A stretch of DNA of 64,000 nucleotides from Acidobacteriota bacterium (GTDB taxonomy: Bacteria; Acidobacteriota; Thermoanaerobaculia; Thermoanaerobaculales; Thermoanaerobaculaceae). The position numbers were made by a program, and so were the translations under genes. The stretch's first letter is position 1. Every line of letters begins with the position of its first letter. The DNA lies in the NCBI GenBank assembly GCA_016213675.1, contig JACQZW010000018.1:1-64000 (forward strand), written 5' to 3'. Under the pieces are notes generated by a model. That model was not told the DNA's origin and searched no databases. It saw nothing but the letters and a program-made list of their open reading frames with translations. This document shows positions 11,140 to 32,921 of the stretch, piece after piece.

Positions 11140-11224
11140 TCGTTGTTGGTGGGTTGTCCGGGACGAGTTTGCGGTTGGTCGTTTGGAACGAGTCGTTGGT
11201 CCGGGGGTGTGGAGCCGAGGCTTC

Positions 11225-11243
11225 GGCCGGGAGCTTCCCGGCC
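11225..11243 (+). promoter_or_regulatory. Perfect hairpin in the leader of the ATPase/YD-repeat gene
   Basis: GGCCGGGA (11225-11232) and TCCCGGCC (11236-11243) form an 8-base-pair stem with a 3-base loop, 51 bases before the GTG start at 11295. There is no U-run after it, so it is more likely an mRNA structure or protein site than a terminator. Confidence 0.35.
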
Positions 11244-11294
11244 GTTGTCCCGGACGGCTGCGCTGGGCTAGGATCGGGCGCTTTGGGAGGATCG

Positions 11295-14200
11295 GTGGAC
11301 GACTTCCGGCCCATCCAGCCGAACCCGTACATCGTCGGCAATCCGATTCGCGACCGGACCATGTTCTTCGGGCGCCAGGAGGAGCTGCGTTTCCTCCACG
11401 ATCGGCTCGACACGAGTGGTCGTGAGATCGTGGTCCTGTGCGGCGGGCGGCGTTCCGGCAAGACGTCCATCCTGCTGCAGGTGCTGGAGGGCCGGCTGGG
11501 CGAACGCTTCCTGCCGGTGCTGGTCGACATGCAGCAGCTTGCCGAGCTGCGTTGCGATGCGGATTTGTGGGCGGCGGTGGCGCGGCGGATCACGGAGCGG
11601 ATGGCGGAGAAGGGGATGGACGTCGGGGGTCTGGAGCCTCCGGCGGGGGGCTGCACCGAGCCGCACGCGAGGTTCCGGCGGTTCCTGGAGGCGGTGGCGA
11701 AGCGGCTGGGCACGCGCAAGCCGCTCATCCTGGTGGACGAGTACGAGTTGATCGAGGAGCACATCCACCACGGAACGCTGACCACCGACGTGACGCTGGT
11801 CATGGCCGCGCTGCTCGATTCCGCCCTGCCGCTCTCGTTCCTCTTCACCGGCTCGCGTCGCGTGCAGGAGCGCGACCCGGCGGTCTGGAGCCGGCTGATG
11901 GGCAAGGCGATCCACCGCCGCATCAGCTTCCTGGGGCTGGGGGATGCCGAGCGGCTGATCCGGGAGCCTGTGCGGGGGCGGATGGAGTACACGGACGACG
12001 CGGTGCGTGTGATCCTGCGTCTCACGGCGGGCCATCCGTTCTACACGCAGGTGTTGTGCCAGTCGCTGGTCGATCGGATGAACGAGCGCCGGACGTCGCT
12101 GGTGGAGGTGGAGGACGTCGACGCGGTGGCGGAGGGGCTGGCGGACAGTCCGTTGCCGCAGATGGTGTACTGGTGGAAGAGCATGCCGCTGCTTTCGCGC
12201 GTCGTCGGCTCGCTCCTGGCGGCCGCGGCCCGGGAGCCGCAGACGTACGTCGCGGCGGGGGCGATCGAGGCGGACCTGGCGTCGCATCGGCGCGAGTACG
12301 GGTTCGACGCCCGGCGGGCCTCGATCCGGGGCGCGCTGGAGAAGATGGTCGAGGAGGAGGATCTCGAGCCGGGCGACCCGCGCGACACGTATCGCTACCG
12401 CATGGACATCATCCGGCGCTGGCTGCGGGTCGAGCATCCGGTCTGGGAGGTGATCCGCGACTTGCGGACGCCGGGCACGGACCTGGATGGCATGCGGCCG
12501 GCCCGGGCGGGTGGTGCCGCGCGGTGGCTGTGGGCGGCGCTCCTGCTCCTGCTCGCCGCCGGCGCGGCCGCGTCGTACCTCGTCCTGCGTGGCGGGGCGG
12601 CGTCGGGACCTGCCGAGCGCGCGGGCGACGGCGGTTCGGCGCGGGTGGCGACGGACACGGGCGGGTCCGTGGTCCCGGCGGGTGAGGACGTCGCCGCGGT
12701 GGCGGCGCCGGACGCGGTGCCGGGCGAGGACGCGCCGTCTCCGCCGGAGGAGGTGCGCTACGCGCGGCATTTCGTGCTGCGGCAGCAGGTCCCGACGCCG
12801 CTGGGCGAGGTGGCCGCGGACGACCTGGGGGGTCGGCCCGCGTACTTCGTCTTCACCTACCGTGCCGGACGCCTCGTGCGCCTGGAGCACCGCAACGCGT
12901 CGCGCTTCCCGACCGCGCTTCCGGATGACGACGACCAGTGGTGGGGGCGGGCGACGACCTTCGTCCCGGAGTATCGCGAGAACGGCACCGTGGAGCGTCT
13001 GACGGCGCTGCGCTGCGGCGGGGAGAAGGTGGAGTGCGTGCCGCTGGCGGTGCTCCAGATCGGTCGCGATCTGCGCACGCGGCGTGTCGTGGTTCCGGGC
13101 CACGAGGAGCTGGTGACCTGGAACGGGGACCGCATCTCGATCCAGTCGTACGACCTGGACGAGCGGGGGTACGGCGACCGGACGCGGTATCTGAACGCGT
13201 TGGGCAAGCCCCAGCCGGACCGCTACGGCCGCGTGGCCGTCACGCGCAAGCACGACGCGGACGGCTGGGTCGTCGAGGAGCGGGAGGAGATCCTCGGCCC
13301 GGCGGCGAGGGACGGCGACGGCGACGGGGGCGGGGCGGCGAAGAAGTCGACGCGCGTGCTCCGACGCACGTTCGACGCCCGGCACAACGAGGTGGAGCTG
13401 GCGCTGTTCGACGGGGGCCGGCAGCCGGTGCGGTTTCCCGAGGAGTCGGCGTGGCCTGGGGTGCACCGCGTGGTGCGGGAGTGGGACGACCGGGATCGGG
13501 CGACGGTGGAGCGGTACTGGGGTCCGGCGGGGGAGCCCGCGCCGCTGTTCGGCTGTCATGCCTTGCGCTACGAGTACGACGCGGCCGGGAACATGGTCCG
13601 GGACGAGTGCCTTGGTCCGGACGGCTTGCCCGGTCCGGACGACGACGAGGTGATGCGGACCGAGTGGGAGTACGACGCGCGCGGACTGCCGGCGGTGGAG
13701 CGGGCGCTGGGGCGCGGCGACCTGCCGGTACGCGAGACGGTCCGCCGCACCTGGGACGATGCCGGGAACAAGATCCTCGAGCGGTGGGTGGACGAGACGA
13801 TCCGCGACGAGAAGGGGCAGCCGGTCGTCGTGCGCGCCCGCTCCTACGAGTACGACCGGCGCGGTCTTCTCGCCGCGCAGCACAGTCTCGACGCGGACGG
13901 CCGGCCGGTTGCGCCGGCCGGCTTCGCGGTGATCCGCTGGGAGTACGACCTGCACGGGCAGATGACCCGGAAGTGGTACGAGGGCCTGGACGGCAAGCCG
14001 GCGACGACGACGGGCGACGAGTTCCGCGGGGTGTCGTCGGTGACGTTCGAGTACGACGACTACGGCTTCCCGATCGCGCGGCGGTTCGCCGACGTCCGCG
14101 GCCGGCCGGTGAACAGTCCCTACGAGGCCGCCGAGATCCGCTGGGAGGTCGATGCGATGGGGCGGATCACGGAGGAGCGCGAGAAACCGGCGCCGCACGA

Positions 14201-15476
14201 TCCGCCCCTGCCCGACACCCAGTGGCCGGACTCGACGCGGCGCACGCGGCGCTACGACGCGGACGGCAACATCGTCGAGGAGCGGGCGTTCGACGCGCGG
14301 GGGCGTCCGGTGCCGGCGGCGACGGGCGAGTTCGTCGTCCGTCGCGAGTTCGACCACCTGAACCAGCCCACCGCGGAGTGGTACCTGGACGCCGACGAGC
14401 GGCCGATGGTGGGCGGCGCGGACCAGGTCGCCCGGCTCACCCGCGCCTTCGCGGTCCTGGGACAGGGCGAGGCCTGCTGGACGGACGACGCGGGGAAGGT
14501 CCGGTGCACGGATCCGCAGACGACGGGCGAGGGGCCGTGGCGGGGGCGGGTGATCGAGACGCGGTACTTCGACGGGACGGGCGAGCCGACGTGGTCCGCG
14601 GCGCACGGCCGCGGCATCGTCCGCGTCGTCTCGGTCAAGGACGCCGACGACCACGTGCTGGAGCTGCGGTACTTCGGGGCGGACGAGCGGCCGGCGACGA
14701 ACCGGCTCGGAGTGCACTCGATCCGCACGCGCTGGAGCCCCGACGGGCCGATCGAGGAGGTGTACCTGGGCGCCGACGGCCTGCCGGTCGAGGCCGAGAT
14801 CGACGCCGGCCTGCGCTGCGCCCGGCGGACGTGGACCTACGACGACCGCGGCCACGCGATCGAGTACCGGACGCTCGGGGCAGACGGCACGCCGCGTGTC
14901 GATGGCCTGGGCATCGCGGCGCGGATCCGCCGCTACGACGGCGAGAATCCGGTCGAGGAGCAGTTCCTCGACGCGGCGGGGGCGCTCCACGGGGGGCTCG
15001 AGGGAATCGCGCGGGCGGTGTGGGAGCACGACGCGGCCGGGCATCCGACGCGGGAGGCGTTCTACGACGCCGGCGGGCTGCCGATCGTGCCTTTCGAGTG
15101 GGTTTCGGACCTGGCGGCGCGGTACGACGAGTTCGGCCGGGTGGTGCACTTCGAGCTGGCGCCGCCGCTGCCGTTCGGCGACGCGGGAGACATGCTGGCC
15201 TTGGTCGAGGTAAACTACCAGGGAGCCACGGCGCTGGCGGTCCCGCGTGGACCCGGCGGGCAGCACATCATCCTGGGGGGGGTCGTGGCCTTGCGCTACC
15301 CGAAGGCGGAGTGGGGGGACCGTACGGGCTGCGTCGGCGTGGACGGCGAGCGGGTGGCGTGCGCGGAGGGAACCGAGGTCCTGCTGCGGTTCCTGACGGC
15401 GGCTCGCCAGGTGGCTTGTTCCGGCGGGGCGGCGGGGGCGGGTGACGGGCGATGCGAGTGGATCTGGTCGCCGTGA
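11295..15476 (+). CDS. STAND-like AAA ATPase fused to a membrane helix and YD/RHS-like repeats
   Basis: A 1393-residue protein. Residues 20-380 form a P-loop ATPase: FFGRQEELRFLHDRL, Walker A CGGRRSGKTSILLQV at about 49-63, and Walker B PLILVDEYELIEE at about 143-155, then a winged-helix-like region (GHPFYTQVLCQSLVDRMN). This is the AAA_16/Orc1-like layout of STAND regulators. One membrane helix (LWAALLLLLAAGAAASYLVL) lies near residue 410. The remaining 950 residues contain repeats of the form YEYDAAGNMVRDECLGPDG, RRYDADGNIVEERAFDARGR and VWEHDAAGHPTREAFYDAGG, close to RHS/YD repeats. GTG11295 is chosen because GGGAGG is directly upstream and homology begins there. The cytoplasmic ATPase plus probably extracytoplasmic YD repeats suggest a transmembrane sensor or a motor-coupled surface protein. 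No partner kinase, toxin or immunity gene is adjacent. Confidence 0.8.
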   Translation: MDDFRPIQPNPYIVGNPIRDRTMFFGRQEELRFLHDRLDTSGREIVVLCGGRRSGKTSILLQVLEGRLGERFLPVLVDMQQLAELRCDADLWAAVARRITERMAEKGMDVGGLEPPAGGCTEPHARFRRFLEAVAKRLGTRKPLILVDEYELIEEHIHHGTLTTDVTLVMAALLDSALPLSFLFTGSRRVQERDPAVWSRLMGKAIHRRISFLGLGDAERLIREPVRGRMEYTDDAVRVILRLTAGHPFYTQVLCQSLVDRMNERRTSLVEVEDVDAVAEGLADSPLPQMVYWWKSMPLLSRVVGSLLAAAAREPQTYVAAGAIEADLASHRREYGFDARRASIRGALEKMVEEEDLEPGDPRDTYRYRMDIIRRWLRVEHPVWEVIRDLRTPGTDLDGMRPARAGGAARWLWAALLLLLAAGAAASYLVLRGGAASGPAERAGDGGSARVATDTGGSVVPAGEDVAAVAAPDAVPGEDAPSPPEEVRYARHFVLRQQVPTPLGEVAADDLGGRPAYFVFTYRAGRLVRLEHRNASRFPTALPDDDDQWWGRATTFVPEYRENGTVERLTALRCGGEKVECVPLAVLQIGRDLRTRRVVVPGHEELVTWNGDRISIQSYDLDERGYGDRTRYLNALGKPQPDRYGRVAVTRKHDADGWVVEEREEILGPAARDGDGDGGGAAKKSTRVLRRTFDARHNEVELALFDGGRQPVRFPEESAWPGVHRVVREWDDRDRATVERYWGPAGEPAPLFGCHALRYEYDAAGNMVRDECLGPDGLPGPDDDEVMRTEWEYDARGLPAVERALGRGDLPVRETVRRTWDDAGNKILERWVDETIRDEKGQPVVVRARSYEYDRRGLLAAQHSLDADGRPVAPAGFAVIRWEYDLHGQMTRKWYEGLDGKPATTTGDEFRGVSSVTFEYDDYGFPIARRFADVRGRPVNSPYEAAEIRWEVDAMGRITEEREKPAPHDPPLPDTQWPDSTRRTRRYDADGNIVEERAFDARGRPVPAATGEFVVRREFDHLNQPTAEWYLDADERPMVGGADQVARLTRAFAVLGQGEACWTDDAGKVRCTDPQTTGEGPWRGRVIETRYFDGTGEPTWSAAHGRGIVRVVSVKDADDHVLELRYFGADERPATNRLGVHSIRTRWSPDGPIEEVYLGADGLPVEAEIDAGLRCARRTWTYDDRGHAIEYRTLGADGTPRVDGLGIAARIRRYDGENPVEEQFLDAAGALHGGLEGIARAVWEHDAAGHPTREAFYDAGGLPIVPFEWVSDLAARYDEFGRVVHFELAPPLPFGDAGDMLALVEVNYQGATALAVPRGPGGQHIILGGVVALRYPKAEWGDRTGCVGVDGERVACAEGTEVLLRFLTAARQVACSGGAAGAGDGRCEWIWSP

Positions 15477-15591: not shown

Positions 15592-18060
15592 TTGACGCGC
15601 ACCGGCGGGAGTTGGGTCATCGTGTGCTCGGCGCTGCTCGCGCCCGCGGGGCTCGAAGCGCAGGACTATGGCGACTATTCGGGCGGCTCGTACGGCGGCT
15701 ACGATCCCAGCGCCTACGGCTACGGCTACGGCTACGGGGGGGACGCGGGGGACACGGGGGACACCGGCGGGACGGAGCCCTCGACGTGGGAGACCGGGAC
15801 GGGGGCCGTGGAGCCGGGGACGACGGGGTTCCTGGCGACGGCGTTCGCGGCGGCGGCTCCGGGCGAGGCGACGGCCGGAACGCAGGTCCGGCTGGCCGAT
15901 GCGGTGTACTGCGACGGGGTGCGCTACTCCCTGGAGGAGGAGCGCGAGGACACCGGGCCGGCGCGGCTGGCGCGGCTGCACGAGCTGACGCGGACGATCA
16001 ACGTCGTCGGCCGCGCGTTGGACCCCGACCGGTGCGGCGAGGCGGCGGAGGGCGAGTGCATCGGGTTGCGCAAGGCGGTCGAGCGGTCGCAGTACCGGGC
16101 GCTGGAGCTGTTCCAGGGCGCGTCCGACCTCGAAGCGTGCATGATCGATCCCATCCGGATGTGGAACGAGCAGGAAGGGATCTGCCAGGAGATGCGGCAG
16201 AACATCTCCGACCTGCGGAAGCTGGACCGGGAGGCGCTGGCGCGGGCGGAGTACGTGCTGGCGCTGCGCCTGTGCGACGGCGCGATGGGTCTGGATGCGA
16301 ACGTGCGGGCGGCCTGCACCAGCCTGGCGACGGCCATCGCGCCCCACGCGCCGCCCAGCGGCGCCCGCCCGTCGTTCTGGCTCGAGGCGCCGATGCCGCG
16401 CGAGGTCCAGGAGGCGATCCGGCAGGTGCGGCTGATCACGGGCGGCAACTTCGACGTCGAGGCCCTGAACAGCGACCTGGCGCGCGACTACCGGTGCGAG
16501 ACGCAGGGGCAGGACGGGAGCGACGGCACGTCGCCCACGGGCGTGCTGGTCGGCCTGTGCAAGGAGTACGCGCTCCTGCAGCGGGTCTCGGACTCCTGCC
16601 GCCAGGCGTCGGTGTACATCGACGAGCGGGGCGGCATCCACGCCTCGGGCGGCCTGTCCTCGGACGACGGCCGCACGGCCGCGACGCTGTGCGTGGACGT
16701 CTCGGATTTCGCGCCGGAGTATCCGTTCATGGTCACCGTGCGGCTGGATGACGAGAGCTCGCGCCCGATGCGCGTCTGGCCGGGCGAGCCGATCTTCATC
16801 GGGCAGTACCTGCCGGGGCCGGTCGATCCGGGCGACGTGATGGGGATCGAGGTTCGCGGGAAGGCGCGGGGCATCTCCCTGGCGGAGACGTTGCGGGTCA
16901 ACGGCGTGTCGTCCGACACGCCGGACGCGTGCCGCATCGCGCGGGCGTACGTTCCGGTGGTCGACCACGAGGTGCCGGTGGGGGGCGAGGGCCAGAAGGT
17001 CATCCCGATGTCGTTCCACACGGGGCGGCTGGGCGAGACGGGGATCGTGACGCAGGGCGACGCGCTGATGATCTGGGTACGCGACATCGAGCCGGCGGGG
17101 GCGGTGCGGGTCGAGTACCAGAGCGGCCAGAACCCGCAGTACGTCGGCTACGTGCCGCCGCCGCTCCTGGGCCAGTCGGCGGAGCTGTCGCAGGCCGAGC
17201 AGCAGCGGCAGGCGCGGGTGCCGCCGGGGGCGCACGTGCGGCCTTCCGAGGCGTCGGTCGATCAGCCGCTGGTCCCGCGCCGCGCCCGCTATCCCGGCTC
17301 CCGTGTGTTGCGCCTCGGGTATCCGTCGGGTTTCTTCGAGTACCCGGTCCGGGTGTGCACGTACGCCACGGATCGTCCCGACTGGGGCGCCGGGCGCACG
17401 GCGGCGGAGGGTCCGGGGATCGCGACCTGCGGCGACCCGCGTGCGACGACGGTCCTGTCCGAGTACATCTACGTCCACGGCGAGTACTACTTCGGCATCC
17501 GCGCGGCGCTGATGGGCTCGTGGTTCCCCGTGCAGCGGTTGATCCCGCGCCAGACGCCCGACGCGCTGCGCGCGGGCGGCAACGCCTGGCAGGTGGTCGC
17601 GGAGAGCGAGAACGTGTTCGAGTTCGACGTGCCGCTCCTGCTGGCGATCTACCCCTTCGGGCGCGATCCCTACGCGTTCGACTACCGCTTCTGGGACCTG
17701 GAGGGCGGCCACTACTGGAACGACGTCGCGATCCTGCTCGGGTTCAGCATGATCAGCATCCCCTGGGACCACATGTACGCGGGCCTTTCGCTCCCCGTGT
17801 ACAGCGGCGTTTCGCTGACGGTCCTGGCGCACTTCGAGAAGCGCTCGATCCCGATCGGCGTGCGCGCCGGGGACATCTTCGAGTTCACGGGGAGCGTCGA
17901 TCCCACGCTCGGTGAGGTCTTCGGCTCGGAGAGCCAGTTCATCACGGGGGTCGCCTTCGGCGTCTCGGTGGACTACGACCTGTTCGAGCGGGCGTTCCGG
18001 GCGATCTGGGCCAAGTTCGGCAACCTGCCGGTGATCCGCTCGACGCCCTACGGGGGCTAG
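15592..18060 (+). CDS. Exported protein with Gly/Tyr-rich N-terminus, function unknown
   Basis: An 822-residue protein starting at TTG15592 behind GAGAGGAGG. A signal peptide (WVIVCSALLAPAGLEAQ) is followed by a Gly/Tyr/Asp-rich stretch (YDPSAYGYGYGYGGDAG) and then a Thr/Gly linker. The middle (about residues 100-350) is helical with scattered cysteines. The C-terminal half is beta-rich, ending with segments such as YFGIRAALMGSWFPVQRL, LPLLLAIYPFGRDPYAFDYRFWDL and SLPVYSGVSLTVLAHFEKRSIPIGVRAG in pieces, which look like amphipathic strands of an outer-membrane protein. No named family was recognised. It begins the collinear gene set that runs to 25276; the lipoprotein gene follows 22 bases later. 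Confidence 0.72.
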   Translation: MTRTGGSWVIVCSALLAPAGLEAQDYGDYSGGSYGGYDPSAYGYGYGYGGDAGDTGDTGGTEPSTWETGTGAVEPGTTGFLATAFAAAAPGEATAGTQVRLADAVYCDGVRYSLEEEREDTGPARLARLHELTRTINVVGRALDPDRCGEAAEGECIGLRKAVERSQYRALELFQGASDLEACMIDPIRMWNEQEGICQEMRQNISDLRKLDREALARAEYVLALRLCDGAMGLDANVRAACTSLATAIAPHAPPSGARPSFWLEAPMPREVQEAIRQVRLITGGNFDVEALNSDLARDYRCETQGQDGSDGTSPTGVLVGLCKEYALLQRVSDSCRQASVYIDERGGIHASGGLSSDDGRTAATLCVDVSDFAPEYPFMVTVRLDDESSRPMRVWPGEPIFIGQYLPGPVDPGDVMGIEVRGKARGISLAETLRVNGVSSDTPDACRIARAYVPVVDHEVPVGGEGQKVIPMSFHTGRLGETGIVTQGDALMIWVRDIEPAGAVRVEYQSGQNPQYVGYVPPPLLGQSAELSQAEQQRQARVPPGAHVRPSEASVDQPLVPRRARYPGSRVLRLGYPSGFFEYPVRVCTYATDRPDWGAGRTAAEGPGIATCGDPRATTVLSEYIYVHGEYYFGIRAALMGSWFPVQRLIPRQTPDALRAGGNAWQVVAESENVFEFDVPLLLAIYPFGRDPYAFDYRFWDLEGGHYWNDVAILLGFSMISIPWDHMYAGLSLPVYSGVSLTVLAHFEKRSIPIGVRAGDIFEFTGSVDPTLGEVFGSESQFITGVAFGVSVDYDLFERAFRAIWAKFGNLPVIRSTPYGG

Positions 18061-18082
18061 GCCCGGCCGGGGAGGTGACGAG

Positions 18083-19639
18083 ATGACGGCACAGAACATT
18101 CGCCTCTGGCTCCTCGCCCCGCTCGCCGCGGCCGGCGCGGGCTGCGGCTCCGAGGCCAGTCTGCCGGGCGTGGGAGACACGCCCTACCGGATCGAGCTGT
18201 CGTTGCTGGATCCGTCGACCGGCGAGGTGCTGCGACCTCCCGCGGCGGGGGACGCGGCCCTCTGGCCGCTGGGCCTGCCGGACGGGCCGGTCCTGTCGGT
18301 GACGTACTGGGCCGTGCGCACGACCCCGCCCCTCTCGCTGATCGTGCGCGCGGTCGGTGCCGGTCTTGCGGGGGGCACGACCGTGGCGGGGACGGGTGGC
18401 GACGGGGGAGGCGGGGGCGATCCGTGCGCCGCGGACCCGTTCGCCTCCGGCTGTCCGTGCGACGTGGACGTCTGGGACCCCGCGTGCGTGTGCTACGACG
18501 ATCCCTGTCTCACGGGCTGCCCGGGCTGGTACGATCCGGACTCGTACTTCTGCGGCAAGGCGGGCGGGACGAGCGAGATCGTGGAGGCGACGGTGCCGCT
18601 GGAGATCATCGACACCGACCACCGGACGGTGAAGATCTCGGTCCTGCCGCCGGCGTCCGCCGGGCTGGCCCAGATCACCGTGGTCCTCGGCGGCGCGTCG
18701 GAGTCGATCCCCGTGGAGTTCACGGCGTCCGACGTCGCCATCCACGCTCCGGCGACGGGGGTCGCCGACGGGGCGACCGAGACGCCGTTGACGGTGACGG
18801 GTCTCGCGGGCCAGATCGTCGAGGTGGAGACGTCGCGCGGCACGTTCGTGGCCCCGGGCTTCACGGGGCACGCGTCGCTGCTCCTCGTGGCGGATGCCCC
18901 GGGTTCCATCGAGGGCACGGCGGTGGTCGGGCTGATCTCGGCCACGCGCGGGCCCGCGGTCGTTTCCGCGGGCGGCTCGGCCGCCGACTGGGTGCGCATC
19001 GACTTCGAGGACGTCCTGCTGGAATTCGGGACTCCGACGGCGATCGACTTCGTGCCGGGCAAGCTGGTGCACGAGATCTGCGTCGCGACCAACAGCGCGA
19101 AGGGCCAGATCCGGCTCCAGAACACCGCGACCGACGCCGTGCTGCTCGATACCGTCCCACAGCCGGTGCTCGCCGCCTCCGGCGCCCTTCCTTCGTCGTG
19201 CCCCGGCGGCAGCTTCGCCGGCTACGCCCTCTTCCGCTGGGCGGCCGGCGACACGACCGACGCCCTGACCGCGACATGGACCGGGCCGACGGCGGGCACG
19301 ACGGCGACCGCGTCGGCGCGGGTGGAGGGCGTCGCGTTCGCGGGCTACCGCGCGACCCTGGAGTCCACGCAGCTCGATTTCGGCGATCCGTACCTGCTGC
19401 TGTTGCAGGTGCGGCTGGAGTACCTGGCGGCCGGCGGGCTCTCGACCCGCCCCGCGGACGGCGTGGGGCTCACGTTCATCGTCGCTTCGACCTTCGGCGC
19501 GACGCCGCTCATGGCCGACGCGGAGACCAGCCCCGAGGGGACGGCGAACGCGGTCTACTCGGTCGTCGATGGCGACGTGCTGGAGGTCTTCGTCCAGCCC
19601 GAGGAGTGGTCCTCGATCGACCTGGGCTCGGCGCCGTAG
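18083..19639 (+). CDS. Large lipoprotein with beta-sandwich-like domains
   Basis: A 518-residue protein from ATG18083 behind GGAGGTGACGAG. The signal peptide LWLLAPLAAAGAGC ends in a lipobox. After a Gly-rich linker comes a short Cys-rich module (CAADPFASGCPCDVD, CVCYDDPCLTGCPG) that could be disulfide-bonded. The rest is Thr/Val/Gly-rich with alternating hydrophobic patterns (TVKISVLPPASAGLAQITVVLGG in parts), suggesting two or three Ig-like beta sandwiches. No enzymatic motif is visible. It lies 22 bases after the exported protein and 12 bases before the GAF gene, so it is probably in the same transcript. It is likely anchored to the inner or outer membrane and could be the envelope component of the cluster. 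Confidence 0.72.
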   Translation: MTAQNIRLWLLAPLAAAGAGCGSEASLPGVGDTPYRIELSLLDPSTGEVLRPPAAGDAALWPLGLPDGPVLSVTYWAVRTTPPLSLIVRAVGAGLAGGTTVAGTGGDGGGGGDPCAADPFASGCPCDVDVWDPACVCYDDPCLTGCPGWYDPDSYFCGKAGGTSEIVEATVPLEIIDTDHRTVKISVLPPASAGLAQITVVLGGASESIPVEFTASDVAIHAPATGVADGATETPLTVTGLAGQIVEVETSRGTFVAPGFTGHASLLLVADAPGSIEGTAVVGLISATRGPAVVSAGGSAADWVRIDFEDVLLEFGTPTAIDFVPGKLVHEICVATNSAKGQIRLQNTATDAVLLDTVPQPVLAASGALPSSCPGGSFAGYALFRWAAGDTTDALTATWTGPTAGTTATASARVEGVAFAGYRATLESTQLDFGDPYLLLLQVRLEYLAAGGLSTRPADGVGLTFIVASTFGATPLMADAETSPEGTANAVYSVVDGDVLEVFVQPEEWSSIDLGSAP

Positions 19640-19651
19640 ACGGGGACCGGC

Positions 19652-20443
19652 GTGCTGGGCCGACTTCCCGCGGACTTCGTCGAACGGCTGCGCGATCTGC
19701 TGTCGACCGTCGAGCTGTCGCGGCAGCTCCTGCGCGCGGATACGGACGATTCGCGGCTGGAGCGGCTGGTGGCGCTGGCGGCGCGCATCGCGGACGCCGA
19801 GTCCGGGGTGCTCTTGCTCGTGGACGAGGACCGCGGCGACCTGCGGGCGGCGGCGGCCGTCGGGCCGGGCGCGGAGGCGCTGCGCGGGACGCACCTGGCT
19901 CCCGGTTCGGACATCGCGGGGGCGGCGCTGGCGGCGGGCGAGCCGATGGCGGTGGCGGGCGAGGGCGAGGAGGGGATGGACACGCCGGTCGAGAGGCTGA
20001 TGGGCGTGCCGACGCGCAACCTGCTGGCGGTGCCGTTCGAGGTGCACGGGGCGCCGGCAGGCGTGTTGGAGCTGCGCAACACGCAGGCGGAGCGCGGCTT
20101 CGACCCGGAGACGATCGCGCGCGTGGCGGAGCTGGCGCGGATCGCGGCGGCCGCGGTCGAGGACTGGAGGGGCGACCGGTTCCTCTTCGCGCTGTTCGCG
20201 GCCGCGCTGCCGCGCGCGTTGGCCCCGGGGGACGACGCGGCGCGGACCGGCGTCTCCGACGAGCTGCGGCGGTGGCTGGAGGGGCTGCGCCAGACGCCGG
20301 CGTGGCGCGCGGCGCTGGAGACCGTGGAATCGATCCGCGAGATCCTGCGCACCGGCGACGACGGGGCACGGCTGGCGGCGGAGGTGTTGTCGGCCGTGGC
20401 GCGGCGCGAGCGCGCGCGGCGGCGGGACCTGGAGCTGCCGTGA
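19652..20443 (+). CDS. GAF-domain protein
   Basis: A 263-residue soluble protein starting at GTG19652. Residues about 35-170 fit a GAF domain: LERLVALAARIADAESG, VLLLVDEDRGDLRAAAAVG, then NLLAVPFEVHGAPAGVLEL and FDPETIARVAELARIAAAAVED. GAF domains bind small ligands such as cyclic nucleotides or respond to redox state; the bound ligand cannot be read here. The C-terminal 90 residues are helical and Arg-rich, with no kinase, cyclase or DNA-binding motif, so it probably works by binding a partner. The stop overlaps the protease start by four bases (GTGA). Tight coupling suggests that the two are made in similar amounts and may interact, the GAF unit gating the protease. Confidence 0.8.
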   Translation: MLGRLPADFVERLRDLLSTVELSRQLLRADTDDSRLERLVALAARIADAESGVLLLVDEDRGDLRAAAAVGPGAEALRGTHLAPGSDIAGAALAAGEPMAVAGEGEEGMDTPVERLMGVPTRNLLAVPFEVHGAPAGVLELRNTQAERGFDPETIARVAELARIAAAAVEDWRGDRFLFALFAAALPRALAPGDDAARTGVSDELRRWLEGLRQTPAWRAALETVESIREILRTGDDGARLAAEVLSAVARRERARRRDLELP

Positions 20444-21240
20444 CGGAAACCGGGCCGCTGCGCCTCTTCCTGGAATCGATCCCTCCCGAGCTGCTCGCGG
20501 CGCGGGGCGACGGCCGCGGGGTCCGGGTGGCGATCGTCGATTCGGGCGTCGACGCCGCACACCCGGCGCTGGCCGGGCGGGTCGAGCGCTCGGTCGCCGT
20601 GCAGCGCGAGGGCGCCGCCTGGAAGGTCGTCGACGTCGAGCCCGGCGATCCCGCGGGCCACGGCACGGCGTGCGCGGGGATCACCGTGCGCCTCGCGCCC
20701 GAGTGCCGCATCTGGAGCGTGCGCATCCTGGGCGAGGCGGCGCGCGGCCAGGGCTCGGCGCTGCTCGCCGCGCTCGACTGGGCCATCGCCTCCGGCGCCG
20801 ACGTGCTCAACGTCAGCCTGGGCACGCGGAGTCCCGAACTGGCCGAGCCGTTGCGGGCGCGGATCGACCGCGCGTACCGCGCGGGCGCCATCGTCGTCGC
20901 GGCCGCGAGCAACCTGCCCGACGTGCGCAGCTACCCCGCGATCTTCAGCTCGCTCATCGCGGTGGACAGCGCGGCGATCGAGGATCCCGAGAAATTCTAC
21001 TTCCGGTTCGGGCGCGAGAGCGAGATCGAGGCGCCCGGGATCTACGTTCGCGCGGCCTGGCCGGGCGGCGGCGAGAAGATCGTGACGGGCACCAGCTTCG
21101 CGTGCCCCCACGTGGCGGGCCACGCGGCGCGCCTGCTCTCGGCCAATCCCGGACTGCGGCCGTTCCACGTCAAGACCCTGCTCTACGCCATCGGCCTGGC
21201 GCACGCACGGCGCGACGGCCCCGCGCGGGAGGCGGCATGA
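20440..21240 (+). CDS. Cytoplasmic subtilisin-like serine protease (S8)
   Basis: A 266-residue subtilase. The catalytic triad is complete: D34 in AIVDSGVD, H74 in GHGTACAG and S219 in GTSFACPHVAG, with the oxyanion-hole asparagine at N158. There is no signal peptide or pro-domain, and at 266 residues it is a minimal catalytic domain, so it should act in the cytoplasm. Intracellular subtilases without pro-domains occur in cyanobactin-like and other peptide maturation clusters, where they cut a leader peptide before export. GTG20440 overlaps the GAF stop, and the TGA overlaps the ATG of the TPR gene. The gene order protease, TPR protein, ABC exporter, small protein fits processing and secretion of a peptide or small protein, but that is inference. 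Confidence 0.88.
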   Translation: MTETGPLRLFLESIPPELLAARGDGRGVRVAIVDSGVDAAHPALAGRVERSVAVQREGAAWKVVDVEPGDPAGHGTACAGITVRLAPECRIWSVRILGEAARGQGSALLAALDWAIASGADVLNVSLGTRSPELAEPLRARIDRAYRAGAIVVAAASNLPDVRSYPAIFSSLIAVDSAAIEDPEKFYFRFGRESEIEAPGIYVRAAWPGGGEKIVTGTSFACPHVAGHAARLLSANPGLRPFHVKTLLYAIGLAHARRDGPAREAA

Positions 21241-22943
21241 GCGACGAACGCGACGCGGCGACCGAGTTGGACGCGCTGGAGCGCGCCGGACGCCTGGCCG
21301 AGGCGGCGAGCAAGGCCCGCGAGCTGGCCGAACGCGCGCCGGAGCCCGCCGCGCGCGCGCTCGCGCTGGTCCGGGCGGCCGAGCTGCTCCTGGAGACGCA
21401 GGGGCCCCCGGCGGCCCGTCCACTCCTGGACGAGGCGCTGGCGGACGCGCGGCGCGCCGGAGACGGCGGGGCGGAGGCGCTGGCGCTGGCGGAGACGGCA
21501 CGGCTGGAGCTGTTCGGACGCGACACGGAGGCCCTGCACCGCGCCGAGAAGCTGCTCGACGAGGCGGCGGCCCGCGCCGGCCTCCCGGACCCGGGCCAGG
21601 GCCTGCCGGCGGCGGCCGCTTGCCGCATCGCCCACTACCGCGGCCTGCTCGCGTCGCGCCGGGGGGAGCCGGCCACGAGCGTAGCGCAGCTCCGGCGGGC
21701 CTACGCGCTGGCCGACGGCGACCCGGCACAACGCTCGCGCATCCTCAACTCCTGGGGACTCCAGCTCGAGGCGTGGGGCGACGCGGACGAGGCGCGCCGG
21801 CTGCTGGAGCGCTCGCTGGAGCTGAAGCTCGAGCTGCAGGACCTGTACGGCGCAGCCGCCACCTACGGCGCCCTGGCATTCCTGCACTCGCGCCTGGGCG
21901 CCCACGCCGAGGCTCGCGACGCGCTGGCACGCGATCTCGAGCTCTCCGAGCGCATCGGGGCGCTCGACGTGCTGCCGGGGCTCCACGCCCGGCTGGCCGG
22001 GGCGCTGGTCGGCTTGGGACGAATCGGCGGGGCGGAGCGCGAGGCGCGAACGGCGATCGAGCTGGCGGAGACGTCGTCGTCCGTTCCGGCGACCCGGGCG
22101 AGATGGTTCGCCTGGCGCGAGCTGGCCCGTGTGCGCCTCGCGCAGGGACTGCTGGATGAAGCCCGGGAAGCGGCACGCGAGCGCGCGCTGGCCGGGTTCG
22201 AGGCGTTGCGGGATCCGTACGGGTCCGCGCTGGCGCGGTTGACGCTGGCCGAGGTCGAGCTGCTGCGCGGGGAGGGGGACGTGCCGGGGGCGCTGGCCGC
22301 CGCGCAAGAGGCGCTCGACGGCGCGCGCGCGGTTTTCGCGCGATTGGGCGCGGTGCAGGAGACGGCCGAGGCGCTGCTCCTGCAGGCCCGGATCGAGCGG
22401 GCGCGGGGCGAGACCGACCGCGCGGCGGCGACCGCGGAGCACCGCGTGCTGCCGCTCGTCGAACGTCTGGCGCGGGCCACCCCGCACCTGCGACGCGCGG
22501 CGCTGGATCTCCTGGCCGCGACCAGGGCGGGGGCGGCCGACGAGCGGCTCGAGGTGCTCGCCGGGCTGCGACGGGTCGAGACGATGCTGGCCGATCGCGC
22601 GGGAGCGCCGGCGGCGTGGACGGCGGTGGCCGTCGCGGTCGGTACCGTTGAAAGTGCGGAGCGCGCGGCACGGGCGGCGGCGGCGGAGGGCGGGGTGCTG
22701 GCGTGGTTCCCGCCGAGGCGGGCGGTGGCCCTCTTCGCGGGTCCGGACGCGGCGGCGCGGGCCGAGGCGATGCGCGGACGGATGCCGGGGGTTGCGACCG
22801 CGGTGGTTTCGGGAGAAGCGACGGTCCGGGCCCTGTGGCCGGCGGGGCCGACGGCTGAGGGTCCCGCGGTCGACGAGGCCTTGCGCGGACTGCCGCGGGG
22901 GAGGAAGAGGAAACCACCGATGGACACCGATAGACACCGATAG
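21237..22943 (+). CDS. TPR-repeat protein coupled to the subtilase
   Basis: A 568-residue soluble protein from ATG21237, overlapping the protease stop (ATGA). Helical repeats fill residues about 20-430: AARPLLDEALADARRAGDG, AEARDALARDLELSERIG and AREAARERALAGFEALRDPYGSA are TPR- or MalT/CHAT-N-like units. The last 140 residues form a different, possibly nucleotidyl-cyclase-like or CHAT-remnant domain (AWTAVAVAVGTVESAERAARAA, VLAWFPPRRAVALFAGPDAA). That stretch resembles the class III cyclase opening pattern, but catalytic residues are not evident. The C-terminal 10 residues (KPPMDTDRHR) are encoded by a dispersed repeat, so the natural end may have been replaced. It probably acts as an adaptor between the protease and its substrate or exporter. 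Confidence 0.78.
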   Translation: MSDERDAATELDALERAGRLAEAASKARELAERAPEPAARALALVRAAELLLETQGPPAARPLLDEALADARRAGDGGAEALALAETARLELFGRDTEALHRAEKLLDEAAARAGLPDPGQGLPAAAACRIAHYRGLLASRRGEPATSVAQLRRAYALADGDPAQRSRILNSWGLQLEAWGDADEARRLLERSLELKLELQDLYGAAATYGALAFLHSRLGAHAEARDALARDLELSERIGALDVLPGLHARLAGALVGLGRIGGAEREARTAIELAETSSSVPATRARWFAWRELARVRLAQGLLDEAREAARERALAGFEALRDPYGSALARLTLAEVELLRGEGDVPGALAAAQEALDGARAVFARLGAVQETAEALLLQARIERARGETDRAAATAEHRVLPLVERLARATPHLRRAALDLLAATRAGAADERLEVLAGLRRVETMLADRAGAPAAWTAVAVAVGTVESAERAARAAAAEGGVLAWFPPRRAVALFAGPDAAARAEAMRGRMPGVATAVVSGEATVRALWPAGPTAEGPAVDEALRGLPRGRKRKPPMDTDRHR

Positions 22944-23000
22944 GGGGGAAGGGGAAGGGGAAGGGGGAAACCACAGATGGACACAGATGGACACAGATAG
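22910..23000. repeat. Two ACAGATGGAC-type repeat copies flanking a G-quadruplex tract
   Basis: The first copy (22910-22943, built of GGACACCGATAG-like units) runs into the stop codon of the TPR gene. The second (22967-23000, ACAGATGGAC units) lies just before the ABC transporter gene. Between them is a G-rich tract, 22943-22967, with four G-runs (6, 4, 4 and 5) separated by AA, an ideal quadruplex pattern. The family matches the element at 9905-9930. Confidence 0.65.
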
Positions 23001-23015
23001 TGGAGGAGGGGGCTC

Positions 23016-24827
23016 GTGAGTGGGGACGCCCGGCGGCGGCTGGTGCGGCTGCTGGTGCGGCGTCGGGCGGGTCTGTTTGTGGGGACGGCGATCCTGGCGA
23101 TTGTGGTGCCGGTGGTGGCCTCGACACCGGTGCGGGCGATTCCGGCGGTGGCAGCGGCGGTGACGGCGGACGACGGGGTCGGGCTTGGCGTGGTCGTTCC
23201 CTGGGGCGGTGGGGGAATGCTGAGCCTGGGCGCGTTGCTCGGGTTGCTCGTCGGCATCGGGCTCTTCGCGGCGGTGCTGTCGCTGCTGCAGGGGATGCTG
23301 GTGGCGCGGCTGAACGCGCGGCTGGCGGCGGACGTGCGCATCCGGCTGACCGAGCACCTCCTGCGCCAGCCGCCGTCGTATCACCAGCGCGTCGGGCCCG
23401 GGCCGCTGCTGGGCGCGCTGACGGCGGACGCCGAGATGATCGCCTTGCACCTGGGCAACCTCCTGCCCGCGGCGTTCGGCGTGGTCTCGGGGGCGATCGT
23501 GTGGTCGCTGACGCTGGGCGGAGGGTTGACGGGTGCGGGTGTGGCGACCGGCGCCGCGGCGCTCGTGGTCGGCGCGGTGTTCGTGGTGTTGGGGGTGACC
23601 AACGGGCTGGCGGCACGGCTCACGGGACGGCGGGCGGGCTCCAGCCAGGTGCAGGCGCAGCAGGCGCGCGACGCGGCGCTCGGGGCGATCACGGAGACGC
23701 TTGGCGCCGCGGACGAGATCCAGGCCAACGCGGCGGAGGAGGAGGAGACCGAGCGGCTGGCGACGAAGATTTCCGAGATGGCGGCGCGGCAGGAGCGCGT
23801 GGCGGCCTGGGGGACCCTGGGCGGCTCGCTGACGCAGGTCGTGGTGGTCGTGGCGGTCCCGGCGCTGGTCGTGACCGCCACGCTGCTGGACGCGCCGGCC
23901 GCGGCGCTGGCGGTCGTTTTGCCCAGCCTCACGTTCCTCCAGGCGGCGATCGGCTCCGCCACGGGACTGTGGACGCAGGTCCGGATGACGCGTCCGTCGC
24001 TGGATCGCGCGGCGGAGCTTCTGGCGGAGAAGCCGGGGATTGTCGATCCGGCGGGGGCGCGGCCGCTGCTCGAGGTCCGGGGGGCGCTGCGCTTCCGCGA
24101 GCTTCGTTTCGCCTATCCCGGAGCGGAGAAGGCGGTCTTGGACGGGGCCGATTTCGAGGTCGCGGCGGGGCGGACGGTGGCGATCGTGGGCGACGGCGGG
24201 TCGGGCAAGAGCACGCTGCTCAAGCTGCTCTTGCGCTTCCACGATCCCGACGCGGGCGCGGTGACGCTGGACGGCCGGGACGTGCGGGACGTGCCGCTGC
24301 GGGAGCTGCGCCGCCGAGTGGCGATGCTCGGCCAGCACTCGCGGCTGTTCGCGCGCTCGGTGCGGGAGAACCTGCGGATGGGTGCGGGGACGGTTTCGGA
24401 CGAGAAGCTCCGTGCCGCGTGCCGGACGGCCGCCGCGGAGCCGCTCTTGGCGAAGCTGGGCGGCGGTTTGGACGCGGCGGTGGACCCCGGCGCGGCGAAC
24501 CTGTCGGGCTCGGAGCGCCGGCGGCTGGCGCTGGCGCGGGTGCTGGCTCGCGATCCCGCGGTGCTGCTGCTCGACGAGCCCGAGGTCGGGCTGCCGCAGG
24601 CGATGGCGGAGCAGCTCCTCAAGGACGTGCGGGCGGCGGCGAGCGGACGCACGTGCCTGATGGTCACGCATCGGCCGGACTTGCTGGAAGCCGACGAGGT
24701 GGTGTTTCTTTCGGGGGGCCGGGTGGCCGCGCGCGGCACGCACGACGAGCTGGCGCGGACCTGCGAGCCCTACGGGAAGCTGCTCGCGCGGCGCCGCGAG
24801 GGCGCCGGAGAAGGCGGTGGAGCATGA
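23016..24827 (+). CDS. ABC transporter, fused membrane and ATPase domains (exporter half-transporter)
   Basis: A 603-residue half-transporter, active as a dimer in the inner membrane. Membrane helices occupy residues about 15-310 (for example LFVGTAILAIVVPVVAS and LGALLGLLVGIGLFAAVLSLL). The ATPase domain has Walker A GDGGSGKSTLLKL near residue 391, Q-loop MLGQHSR, signature LSGSERRRLALARVL near 495 (LSGSE instead of LSGGQ), Walker B VLLLDEPEVGL near 517 and the switch histidine in VTHRP. There is no N-terminal C39 peptidase domain, so any leader removal must be done elsewhere, perhaps by the subtilase upstream. GTG23016 follows a GGAGGAGGG site. The stop overlaps the ATG of the 150-residue gene, which makes that protein the obvious candidate cargo or partner. 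Confidence 0.92.
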   Translation: MSGDARRRLVRLLVRRRAGLFVGTAILAIVVPVVASTPVRAIPAVAAAVTADDGVGLGVVVPWGGGGMLSLGALLGLLVGIGLFAAVLSLLQGMLVARLNARLAADVRIRLTEHLLRQPPSYHQRVGPGPLLGALTADAEMIALHLGNLLPAAFGVVSGAIVWSLTLGGGLTGAGVATGAAALVVGAVFVVLGVTNGLAARLTGRRAGSSQVQAQQARDAALGAITETLGAADEIQANAAEEEETERLATKISEMAARQERVAAWGTLGGSLTQVVVVVAVPALVVTATLLDAPAAALAVVLPSLTFLQAAIGSATGLWTQVRMTRPSLDRAAELLAEKPGIVDPAGARPLLEVRGALRFRELRFAYPGAEKAVLDGADFEVAAGRTVAIVGDGGSGKSTLLKLLLRFHDPDAGAVTLDGRDVRDVPLRELRRRVAMLGQHSRLFARSVRENLRMGAGTVSDEKLRAACRTAAAEPLLAKLGGGLDAAVDPGAANLSGSERRRLALARVLARDPAVLLLDEPEVGLPQAMAEQLLKDVRAAASGRTCLMVTHRPDLLEADEVVFLSGGRVAARGTHDELARTCEPYGKLLARRREGAGEGGGA

Positions 24828-25276
24828 GCGAGACGAAGAAGGTTCTGGTCAACCATCCCGACGGGCGGATTTGCGAGGTGCCGGTCGACGTGCTCGACGG
24901 CTACGTCGTGCCGCCGGAGCGCGTGAAGGAGCTGGCGCGTGCGGCAGGCGGGAGGGTCGTCTCGGAGGGTCCGCCCGTTCCGGCCGAGGGGCCGGCGGGC
25001 GAGCACCCGGACCGGTCGCTGGTGCTTCCGGCGAGCGGGCAGAGCGTGGTGTTCAACTTCTACCTGGGCCCCCAGGCGAAGCTGGCGCTGCACGCCACGG
25101 GCCCGGGCGCCCCGGCCAAGGAGGGCGCGGACGTCGAGGGCTACCACATGGACATCGATGCGATGGGCTCGATGACGCTGCACACCGACTGGCGCGTCGG
25201 CCCGTACATCGACAAGTCCGGGCGCCCCGGCTTCGGCCCGCATTCGCACGATCCCGTGGCCGGCAACGCGCAGTAG
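24824..25276 (+). CDS. 150-residue protein, candidate substrate of the protease/exporter cluster
   Basis: A small acidic-to-neutral protein starting MSETKKVLVNHPDGRICEVP at ATG24824, overlapping the ABC transporter stop by four bases (ATGA). There is no signal peptide or membrane segment. Residues about 1-50 form a compact unit, residues 50-65 are a Pro/Gly-rich linker, and 67-150 are beta-like (VVFNFYLGPQAKLALHATG) ending in a His/Gly/Pro-rich tail (GYHMDIDAMG, DWRVGPYIDKSGRPG, FGPHSHDPV). It has only one cysteine, so lanthionine chemistry is unlikely. The position after a subtilase and an exporter lacking a peptidase domain suggests exported cargo, a precursor, or an exporter accessory. I do not recognise the family. 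Confidence 0.7.
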   Translation: MSETKKVLVNHPDGRICEVPVDVLDGYVVPPERVKELARAAGGRVVSEGPPVPAEGPAGEHPDRSLVLPASGQSVVFNFYLGPQAKLALHATGPGAPAKEGADVEGYHMDIDAMGSMTLHTDWRVGPYIDKSGRPGFGPHSHDPVAGNAQ

Positions 25277-25345: not shown

Positions 25346-25459
25346 CGGAAGATAGTCCTTGCGCGCGGCGTGTTCGTCCCGCAGACTTCCTTCAATCAGG
25401 GAATTCGCGCGCAGGGGAGTCGGGGTGACCTCCCGGAGCGCGGAGTCGGGGAGGACGCC

Positions 25460-28400
25460 ATGAACCGAGCTACGCTGCGGCTGGGGTTCCTCGCGGTGGC
25501 GATTGGCTGCGCCGATCGGCCAGCCGACTTTGCCCGGGGGGGGGGGGATACGGATCCGACCGTAGCCTCGCTGACGCTTGACCGTGCCGGGGGGACCTTC
25601 GTGCACGGCTCGGTCAGCCTCGTCGTCCCCGAGGGCGCGCTCTCCGGCCCGACAACCATCACGCTGAAGGAGGTCGAGGGGCCACCGCACGGGGCGGTCG
25701 GCTCCGCATGGGAGTTCGGACCGGACGGCCTCTTGTTCCGCATCCCGGCCACGCTCACCGTCGCCTACGATCCCGGCTCGCTTCCGCCCGGCATCGAGGC
25801 GTCGTCGCTTCGGCTGGCGGTGCGGGACGGTCCGCGGTGGCGCGCGCTCGAAAGACCGGGCCGCGAGGGCGCGGAGGAGCAAGTCGTGGGCACGGTGCTG
25901 CACTTCAGCACGTACGGGATCGTGCCGGATCCGCGGGAAACCGAGGGGACGGGAACGCGGTGGGAGGCGAACGGTGTCGTGGCCGAAACGTCGACCGACG
26001 CGTGGGGGAGGCTGTACGTCTCGCCGGCCGCGATCAGCATGTTCGTCCAGGCAGACGCGGCGGGCCCGATGACGCTGACGCTGTCCGGACTCCCGACGGA
26101 CGAGGCCAACCACCTTTATGTCGACGGCTACGGCACGCACGTCGTGGTGGCGCCCTCCGCCGGCGGCGTCGCGACAGTGGAACTCGACAGCGCGCGGCCG
26201 CACTTCCTCTGGGTCCAGCCGGGACCTGGGACCACGTTCCTCGGCGGCGCCGGGGACCAATGCCACCTGGTCGGAGTGCGCGCCGGCAACACGTGCACCC
26301 TGACACGGGACGTGGTCGGGGCGATCAGCATCGAGGCCGCCGGCCAGGAGCTGGATTGTGCGGGCCATCGCATCACGCAGGATCCGTTCAAGCCCGAATC
26401 GGGGATTGGCGTTCTGGTGAGCGCGTTCCAGCGGCCGATCTCTAACGTGGCGATCCGCAACTGTCGCATCGGGGCGCCGGGCTTGGGTTTCTTCCAGGCA
26501 GTGGACGTCGTCGGCGCGCCCGGGGTGGAAATCGCGGACTCGGTGTTCGAGGACAACATGCTGGGGATCTACCTGCAGGCGGCGAACGGCGCCCGGCTCC
26601 TGGGCAACCGCTTCGAGGGCGCCGGGAACTACGCCATCCAGGTGTATGAGGGTTCCACCGACGGCGTGATTTCGGACAACCGGGTGGAGTTCGCGGGCGG
26701 CATCGAGCCGGGCGCGATCGTGCTGAAGGGCGGAAAGCCCGGCTCGTCGACCAACTTCACCTCGCGGATCAGCGTTCGTGACAACCGCATCGTGGGTGGG
26801 ACGTTGGGAATAGGTTTGGTGGCGGCGAAGGACAACGAGCTGACGGGGAACGAGATCGACGGCGCCGCCCGCGCGCTGTGGCTCGGCCCCGACGGCTGGC
26901 CGAATCGCGTTTGGTGGAACAACATCCATGGCTCCGCGGAGTGGGCCGTCTGGGCCGACTTCGGGCCGGCGGAGCTGTCGGATGCGGGGCGCGGAAACTG
27001 GTGGGGCCATGGGTGCCCGGGCCCGTTGTTTTGGCCGGGAATCGATTCCTCGACCCTGAACGTCCGCGATAGCCACGCGTATGGAGGACGCGACGAATGG
27101 GCTGCGGGCGGCGGTCCGGGCTGCACGGGCGACCACGATGGCGACACGATGCCCGACGCATCGGACAACTGTCCCGACGTCCCGAACCCGGGGCAGGAGG
27201 ACGGAGACGGCATCGGAGAGGGCGATGCATGCGACGCGACGGCGCCGGCACCTCCGATCGTGAGTTCTCCTGCGCAGGGCGTCATCTTGACGACCTCAGA
27301 CGTCGTGGTGCGCGGGACCGCGGAGTCCGGCGCGATGGTGCGCATGTTCCTGGACGACACGTTGTTCGCGTCGGCAGCTGCGGAGGTGGACGGTCAGTTC
27401 ACGTCGACGTTCTGGGCACTTGCCGACGGAATCCACCGCCTACAGGCGGATGCCGCGGACGCGGCGGGCAACGTGTCCGGGACGTGCGACTTGGTGATCT
27501 TCACGGTCCACACGGTGCCCCCGTCTCCTCCTCTGATCCTGTCACCACGTCCACTCGAGCTGATCACCACATCGCAACTTGCGGTCGAAGGCGCCGCGAC
27601 CGCCGCCGCGGAGGTCAGGTTGTTGGTAGACGGGCTGGCCATGACCTCGGTTCCTGTCGAGGACACGAGGGGATGGTCCGCGGAGAGCGTCGGCCCGCTC
27701 ACCGCCGGAGTGCATTCCCTGGTGGCTCAGTCGGTTGACAGCTGGGGCTTGGTGTCGGCCCCGTCCGAGGAGATTCGGATTCTCGTGCAGCCTGTCGAGG
27801 GCGCGGCGCCCGTCGTCGGAGGTCGAGGGAAGTTGCGGCTCGTCGAGCTGCGGGACGATCCTGATCCCTTCATCGCGGGGGTCGAGAATGTCGAGTTTTC
27901 GCTCCGCGCTGAGTCGGACGCGGTGCACGCGTTGGGAGGCCGCTCCACGCGGAATCACGCGTTTACGCTCCGCGCACACTGGACGGTCGAGGATGCAAGA
28001 ACGGGCGCCGAACTCCGGACGATCAACGCAAGTGGAGCGGTGAACCCAACTCACGGGCGGGACGACTCCGTCGTCAGCGGCGAGGTCGTGACCGTGTGGG
28101 ACGGCCGGGACAGCGGCGGATCCTTGGTACCGCAGGCGAGGCAACTCGCTGTTCACGTCCGCGTAGAGTTGGTCCGGAGCTACATCGGTCATGGCACCGG
28201 ATCGCCGTGCAGCAGGGACGAGGAGGTCCGAACGGACGTTCCCGGGTGGCCATCATGCCTCGTCGACTCCGTCGAGCTGCGCATGGCGAGCACGACGATG
28301 GCGATTCCTGCTCCGTCCTTGCCCACGGCGTCGATTCGGATCGAGCGCGGCTGGACGCTTCGCGAGGCCGTGGCTGTTCGCTTCCTCGCCCAGGATCGGT

Positions 28401-29665: not shown

Positions 29666-29668
29666 TCG

Positions 29669-30769: not shown

Positions 30770-30939
30770 GTAGGGATTCTCGCAGCCCGCAGCGGTCGAA
30801 GATGGGCAATCGTCCGGTCGGGGCACGGGGGACAGGGGGCGTGAAGACCGACCCCGCTCCTGCGGGTGGCACGAACTCGCAAGATGCGGGATCTGCAGCC
30901 AAGTCCGAATGAGGTCGCCTCGATGCAGCCCGCACCACC

Positions 30940-31961: not shown

Positions 31962-31970
31962 CCCGGCCCG

Positions 31971-32843: not shown

Positions 32844-32899
32844 CTTCGTCTCCTCCGATCGTGGCGCCTTCGGGCGCGCTTCCGGCTTTCGTCCCCTAC

Positions 32900-32921
32900 T
32901 ACACGCGACCCACCCGATTCC
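32900..32921 (-). promoter_or_regulatory. Possible ECF-type promoter of the sigma operon
   Basis: On the minus strand GGAATC (32916-32921) is followed 10 bases later by CGTGTA (32900-32905), 57 bases before ATG32843. The GGAAT box resembles ECF -35 elements, but the spacing to CGTGTA is shorter than the usual 16-17. If the -10 is instead placed 16 bases away, it falls on GTAGTA. Autoregulation is plausible but unproven. Confidence 0.25.

Follow-up and report, generated by a model that had tools for sequence, protein, structure and literature searches.

Which protein is the substrate of a cytoplasmic protease encoded beside an ABC exporter, and what becomes of it? This question is raised by a row of genes in the first 64,000 nucleotides of contig JACQZW010000018.1, filed under an Acidobacteriota bacterium; this whole stretch is called the window here. 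Seven collinear genes on the plus strand occupy positions 15592-25276 by an open-frame check of the window, and 4-base overlaps join the genes for a GAF protein and a subtilase (GTGA at 20440), for the subtilase and a TPR protein (ATGA at 21237), and for the ABC exporter and a 150-residue protein (ATGA at 24824). A preliminary description had reported this arrangement, and the coordinates and overlap letters were re-read and agree. Based on sequence comparison and analogy, we regard it as reasonably probable that the locus encodes a leader-dependent processing and export system, in which the subtilase (peptidase family S8) cuts the 150-residue protein at a DV-site and the ABC exporter secretes its C-terminal domain. 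The candidate parts are as follows.

19652-20443, plus strand: GAF protein (Pfam GAF_3, 1.5e-11, 45 bits)
20440-21240, plus strand: cytoplasmic subtilase (S8), candidate leader peptidase (Pfam Peptidase_S8, 1.5e-31, 110 bits)
21237-22943, plus strand: TPR protein, candidate adaptor (Pfam TPR_12)
23016-24827, plus strand: ABC exporter half-transporter, no peptidase domain (Pfam ABC_membrane and ABC_tran)
24824-25276, plus strand: putative precursor of 150 residues (alignment of 24 homologues and conservation per region)
24842-24934, plus strand: leader segment VLVNHPDGRICEVPVDVLDGYVVPPERVKEL, common to both phyla
25130-25273, plus strand: probable exported product, DVEGY site and C-terminal domain (alignment of 24 homologues)

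The precursor family and its candidate cargoes

The 150-residue protein has no convincing match in Pfam, NCBIfam, PADLOC, PHROGs or PDB sequences. It is present as a single copy in its own genome, and a search of 60 genomes of relatives gave no homologue in the others. A full homologue was found among 11.3 million genome contigs in a metagenome-assembled genome (MAG) of Myxococcales (G425, L003), and the same scan located the C-terminal 30 residues in an archaeal MAG (L004), inside a protein of 952 residues. No true homologue of the C-terminal motif was found in viral contigs, plasmids and phages, where the lone viral match was out of frame, and a DNA-pattern scan of 396 genomes from the phylum of the bin, with a pattern that was too strict, returned the window only. 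Profile searches revealed a 98-residue homologue immediately upstream of GAF-S8-ABC in G452 and a 96-residue homologue beside ABC and GAF-S8 genes in G412. Wider profiles added G495, in which the gene adjoins the ABC gene in the order of the window, together with G674, G639 and G713. Note that "Polyangia-like", "Sorangium-like" and "second phylum" are labels inferred from gene content and search groups, unlike the names taken from record titles.

Alignment of 24 precursors displays a conserved leader (PDGR..VP..VL..Y), a variable linker, a D-V-x-(G/A)-(Y/H) site and a conserved C-terminal domain (H..DW..G...D..G.....H.H). In the window protein the leader covers about residues 5-37 and the linker residues 38-102, followed by the D-V-E-G-Y site (103-107) and a C-terminal domain of 45 residues. 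One residue accounts for at least 80% of a column in 9 of the approximately 26 gap-free leader columns, in 20 of the 42 columns of the C-terminal domain, and in a single one of the 73 linker columns, which are 59% gaps. V104, H120, G126, D130, G133, H140, H142 and P144 are invariant. The C-terminal 60 residues, singled out earlier as the place to look for conservation or variability, proved conserved, the last 45 being the best-conserved part of the protein. The single cysteine counted in the preliminary description is position 17, in the leader, and the core contains none. AlphaFold2 with the 24 sequences gave confidence for the leader region only, as a beta-hairpin and two helices (predicted local distance difference test score, pLDDT, of 77-86 for residues 1-40); with two sequences the pLDDT was 32 and nothing was usable. 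The invariant histidines and aspartate of the C-terminal domain at most suggest a metal site. From this architecture the 150-residue protein is best read as a leader-bearing precursor, the putative substrate of the system.

Seven genomes of the class of G412, in the second phylum, share the leader and the site, followed by short cores, GGDVQAYSNQDICYAWECDGYGNCVYVWWYC or GEVQAYNDVCVCRQLLCNAYGCWWHYYYCYC, of about 25 residues rich in Cys, Trp and Tyr. Six of these loci besides G412 were read in detail. The precursor gene adjoins the ABC exporter gene wherever the contig is long enough, mostly also lies beside a gene for a TPR/thioredoxin (TlpA/ResA-like) protein, and shares its contig with a GAF or S8 gene in G830 and G780. 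The scanned neighbours included no recognisable modifying enzyme, only the TlpA/ResA-like thioredoxin. A single leader appears to serve different cargoes, because the leader and the DV-site are common to two phyla while the cores differ. A second precursor copy in G412 (L165:9229-9474), near large WD40 genes, carries a stop codon in its leader, and a possible GTG start comes right after it.

The C-terminal domain also occurs without the leader. It follows a lipoprotein-type signal in a second copy in G495 (L204:7213-7527) and in G673 (L196:787-1635), a genome with no S8 match at 1e-20. In the 952-residue archaeal protein (L004:1401-4259) the motif VGSYVDRESGKPGFGPHSHDSQSGNAQ at 2901-2996 comes shortly after a single membrane helix and is presumed to be extracellular; these signals and the helix were judged by eye. 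Each of these cases independently puts the domain outside the cytoplasm, which is where it would work.

The GAF-S8 pair and conservation of the gene set

The catalytic domain of the window S8 protein spans residues 25-248 of 266 in Pfam, and there is therefore no room for a pro-domain; no hydrophobic segment was found in this protein or in the 150-residue protein. D34, H74, N158 and S219 are all present, and the triad and the oxyanion N158 are conserved in 45/45 members of the clade described below. Pfam span and residue check bear out the earlier claim of a subtilase with a full D34/H74/S219 triad and neither signal nor pro-domain. The best NCBIfam match is QhpE (109.8 bits, cut-off 165). A survey of the QhpE family in 396 genomes, with gene neighbourhoods, separated QhpE-like proteins near ABC genes from a group of GAF-linked subtilases of about 265 residues, which are 46-49% identical to the window S8 and nearly all preceded by a GAF gene. 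More of them (40-78% identical), often in the order ABC-GAF-S8-TPR, were found in 318 genomes of G425's class, including Sorangium-like genomes of 13-16 Mb.

In a quick tree of 94 subtilases with moderately supported branches, the GAF-type proteins form one clade of 45 rows with a Shimodaira-Hasegawa-like approximate likelihood ratio test (SH-aLRT) value of 92, against 99 for QhpE and 99 for other subtilases, and the window S8 groups with those of G425, G430 and G495 in the Polyangia-like part. A GAF gene lies immediately upstream of this S8 gene in 30 of 33 genomes, counting one locus per genome, and directly upstream in none of the 62 loci of other subtilases; five GAF-bearing rows first tallied as "other" are extra copies of the window, G425 and G452 loci. 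Judged by sequence and position, the pairing of GAF with S8 is conserved, and ABC-GAF-S8(-TPR) recurs across the Polyangia-like class. The TPR protein has 66-67% identity in G430, and in Polyangia-like loci its gene follows S8. The ABC exporter has intact Walker A, signature, Walker B and H-loop motifs, with 76% identity in G425 and 40% in G495; Pfam finds ABC_membrane and ABC_tran alone, in line with the exporter lacking a peptidase domain as first described.

With thresholds of about 1e-6 or better for the precursor and below 1e-20 for S8, the precursor was found in 27 of the 318 Polyangia-like genomes, 24 of which also have S8; 3 have the precursor alone, 22 have S8 alone and 269 have neither (Fisher's test gives p of about 1e-20 with no correction for kinship). 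With S8 in 24/27 of these genomes, homologues of the small protein do not occur mostly away from proteases and exporters. The precursor gene adjoins an ABC gene in G425, G495, G671, G412, G820, G830, G780, G781 and G756 and the GAF-S8-ABC genes in G452, and it lies 15-16 kb from S8 on shared contigs in G718 and G719; with the window genome (G000), these are the genomes in which it is close or adjacent to ABC and/or S8. To the earlier question whether the small gene always follows a subtilase plus an ABC exporter, these counts answer that S8 accompanies it in most genomes and that adjacency to the ABC gene is not always kept. Two large divergent Ser/Thr kinase genes (L201:9226-17374 and L200:9859-18343) stand beside the precursor operon in Polyangia-like loci, suggesting kinase control of the system.

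Conservation around the window locus extends to the genes upstream of GAF.

11154-15476, plus strand: AAA/STAND-like ATPase with YD (RHS-type) repeats (weak ATPase_2/AAA_16 and RHS_repeat matches)
15592-18060, plus strand: outer-membrane-like protein of 822 residues (N-terminal signal by eye, no Pfam family)
18083-19639, plus strand: putative lipoprotein of 518 residues (hydrophobic start ending GAGC by eye, no Pfam family)

The AAA/YD gene, possibly the first gene of the transcription unit, is matched in G425 and G430 by counterparts (63-64% identity) with the same position and direction. Orthologues of the outer-membrane-like protein occur in G425 (73%), G430 (73%) and G495 (40%), and the putative lipoprotein keeps its position in G425 and G430 (47-48%). 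At one contig end of G425 (L020) lie the AAA/YD, outer-membrane-like, lipoprotein, GAF and S8 genes, and on another contig (L003) the ABC gene and the small gene; gene order equals that of the window with 48-81% identity, and the TPR gene alone falls in the contig gap. G430 has AAA/YD, outer-membrane-like, lipoprotein, GAF, S8 and TPR genes, then the beginning of the ABC gene. Recurring in the same order in G425 and G430, the gene set is, by this comparison, more than a chance neighbourhood. The unit has a natural end at the small gene, because window and G425 diverge just 3' of it. In Polyangia-like genomes, positional analogues of the outer-membrane-like protein and the lipoprotein come after the precursor gene; homology of the window outer-membrane-like protein to the Polyangia-like one found no support in hhalign. 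PADLOC gave generic subtilase and ATPase models and no relevant defence system beyond them.

The synteny of the window contig (G000, C81) with the Myxococcales MAG G425 (L003/L020) covers 10-25 kb and returns at 33-43 kb. About 7.6 kb between these blocks (25370-33010), encoding a beta-helix/Ig protein, an FGE-sulfatase-like protein and a sigma-factor-like gene product, is absent from the corresponding place in G425. The bin of the window has 4.65% contamination, and its phylum is unlike G425's class, as judged from non-overlapping search groups. Because synteny with G425 exceeds the cluster and the S8 protein nests among Polyangia-like sequences, the contig may belong to a myxobacterium and have been binned wrongly, or horizontal transfer may account for the region. 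The question of the host leaves the analysis of the system unaffected.

Proposed route and alternative explanations

In the proposed route, the 150-residue protein would be synthesised in the cytoplasm, carrying at its N-terminus a leader of about 37 residues, followed by a spacer. The S8 protein, paired with GAF and aided by the GAF and TPR proteins, would recognise the leader and cut at or near D-V-x-(G/A)-(Y/H), and the peptidase-less ABC exporter would then move the C-terminal domain of about 45 residues out of the cytoplasm. We infer this cleavage and export, with their order, by analogy with QhpE and QhpF. The GAF protein, being nearly always paired with S8, would be the likeliest activator or gate of the protease, and the TPR protein is a plausible adaptor for leader or substrate. 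The released domain would act in the envelope, probably together with the lipoprotein and the outer-membrane-like protein of the operon, which may receive or anchor it.

Several observations weigh against this route. The genomes are not independent, and kinship among them inflates the co-occurrence count. The 22 Polyangia-like genomes with S8 alone have no detected precursor, the weaker S8 matches among them probably being other subtilases; in three large Sorangium-like genomes, 57-105 kb separate the precursor gene from S8. In about 20 second-phylum genomes GAF-S8 occurs without a detected precursor or an adjoining ABC gene, so that the protease may have other substrates. For the product domain, AlphaFold2 gave no confident structure and the fold search had no significant match. 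The gene set first proposed for processing and export is upheld in its conserved GAF-S8 pair, its recurring ABC and TPR genes and a small protein that tracks S8, and qualified in that GAF-S8 also occurs with no precursor detected and no ABC gene adjoining.

Such pairs, which lie near M16 and S41 peptidase genes, are what one would expect if GAF-S8, like an intracellular-subtilisin-like regulator, were a general ligand-controlled cytoplasmic protease, with the small protein merely a neighbour secreted by the ABC protein with or without a leader. We consider this unlikely, as the precursor tracks S8 through the 318 genomes and the leader is conserved over two phyla despite the change of cargo. 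Moreover, an M16 neighbourhood in the second phylum also contains the precursor and an ABC gene, and the precursor-less M16 loci may on this ground be reduced versions. The start-stop overlap of the small gene with the ABC gene is typical of stoichiometric partners and would fit a small protein that serves the exporter as adaptor or regulator in the cytoplasm, the true cargo being the large outer-membrane-like protein, the lipoprotein or another protein. That explanation is very improbable: elsewhere the C-terminal domain is preceded by a lipoprotein-type signal or a membrane anchor, the two envelope proteins carry their own N-terminal signals, and the cores diversify in the second phylum as cargoes would.

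It is also quite improbable that the locus is a classic pathway for a ribosomally synthesized and post-translationally modified peptide (RiPP), its core modified before cleavage and export by an enzyme encoded elsewhere. The leader-site-core layout, the Cys/Trp/Tyr-rich cores and the precedent of QhpD-QhpE-QhpF speak for it. Against it, the scans of genes near the window locus and near Polyangia-like and second-phylum loci turned up no recognisable radical SAM, YcaO, Lan-type or other modifying enzyme, although one may be encoded elsewhere, and the window core lacks cysteine and is itself a conserved domain. Leader and site are conserved; the core differs between lineages, yet forms one conserved domain among Polyangia-like genomes.

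Relation to known systems

The preliminary description had named cyanobactin and lanthipeptide-like pathways as known parallels. QhpE/QhpF, absent from that description, are closer functionally. In the biosynthesis of quinohemoprotein amine dehydrogenase (QHNDH), QhpE has been proven to strip the leader of QhpC in the cytoplasm prior to export by QhpF (PMC7876137). As in qhp, the window has a cytoplasmic S8 protein, a peptidase-less ABC exporter beside it and a leader-bearing small protein as putative substrate, in one operon as judged by overlaps and spacing. However, the window S8 is below the QhpE cut-off and outside the QhpE clade; the aligned QhpE-like rows keep the triad but not, in the matching column, the oxyanion Asn, which the GAF-type S8 keeps in 45/45. 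The window system also has GAF and TPR partners, and neither Pfam nor NCBIfam holds a model that its precursor matches. No Pfam or NCBIfam match to QhpA, QhpB, the radical SAM enzyme QhpD, the monooxygenase QhpG or a QhpC-like gamma subunit was found among the window genes scanned.

The ElxP-type peptidase of class I lanthipeptides is a cytoplasmic S8 protein that cuts a leader at a motif whose first two residues are acidic and aliphatic (PMC10885120); the window has such an S8 protein and a site with this opening. The motif is otherwise unlike, no Lan synthetase was found in the genes scanned and the window protein has no Ser/Thr/Cys core. Cyanobactin PatA and PatG are likewise subtilases acting on a leader-bearing precursor, but the TIGR03895 match is weak (39 bits, cut-off 421), with no heterocyclase, macrocyclase domain or repeated core cassettes. 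The NHLP/double-glycine systems share ABC-dependent export of leader-bearing small proteins, and differ in that the window exporter has no C39 domain, the leader has no double-glycine end and a separate S8 protein would take the peptidase role. The mycosins of type VII secretion are also distant (104.5 bits, cut-off 278.75; no hydrophobic segment in the window S8).

Removing a leader with a cytoplasmic subtilase and exporting through an ABC protein is a known logic. New in this case are the leader with its precursor family, the accompanying GAF and TPR proteins, and the variety of cargoes. A literature search on the motif, on GAF, subtilase and precursor together and on related gene sets found no description, in a coverage from which subscription journals were mostly absent. 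Whether the system represents an undescribed class of maturation and export in at least two phyla is an evenly balanced question. Such a class would combine a GAF-controlled, multi-turnover S8 protein, a peptidase-less ABC exporter and one leader for differing cargoes (the 45-residue His-rich domain and the Cys/Trp/Tyr-rich peptides of about 25 residues) with no dedicated modification enzyme. If so, bacteria known for their secondary metabolism (Sorangium-like myxobacteria and the second phylum) would have a further, widespread way of secreting peptides and small proteins, and the system would be a second example of QhpE/QhpF-like logic in which the protease keeps its complete catalytic machinery. 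Its signature would be the GAF-S8 pair, the ABC exporter and the PDG..VP..L..Y leader, and the leader should let cargoes be listed through sequence search. Genome mining based on modifying enzymes would miss the system, because no such enzyme was found nearby. A gene for a PqqD-like protein of 99 residues near an unrelated subtilase (L096:79-378, G400), judged by eye, may mark another peptide-maturation locus.

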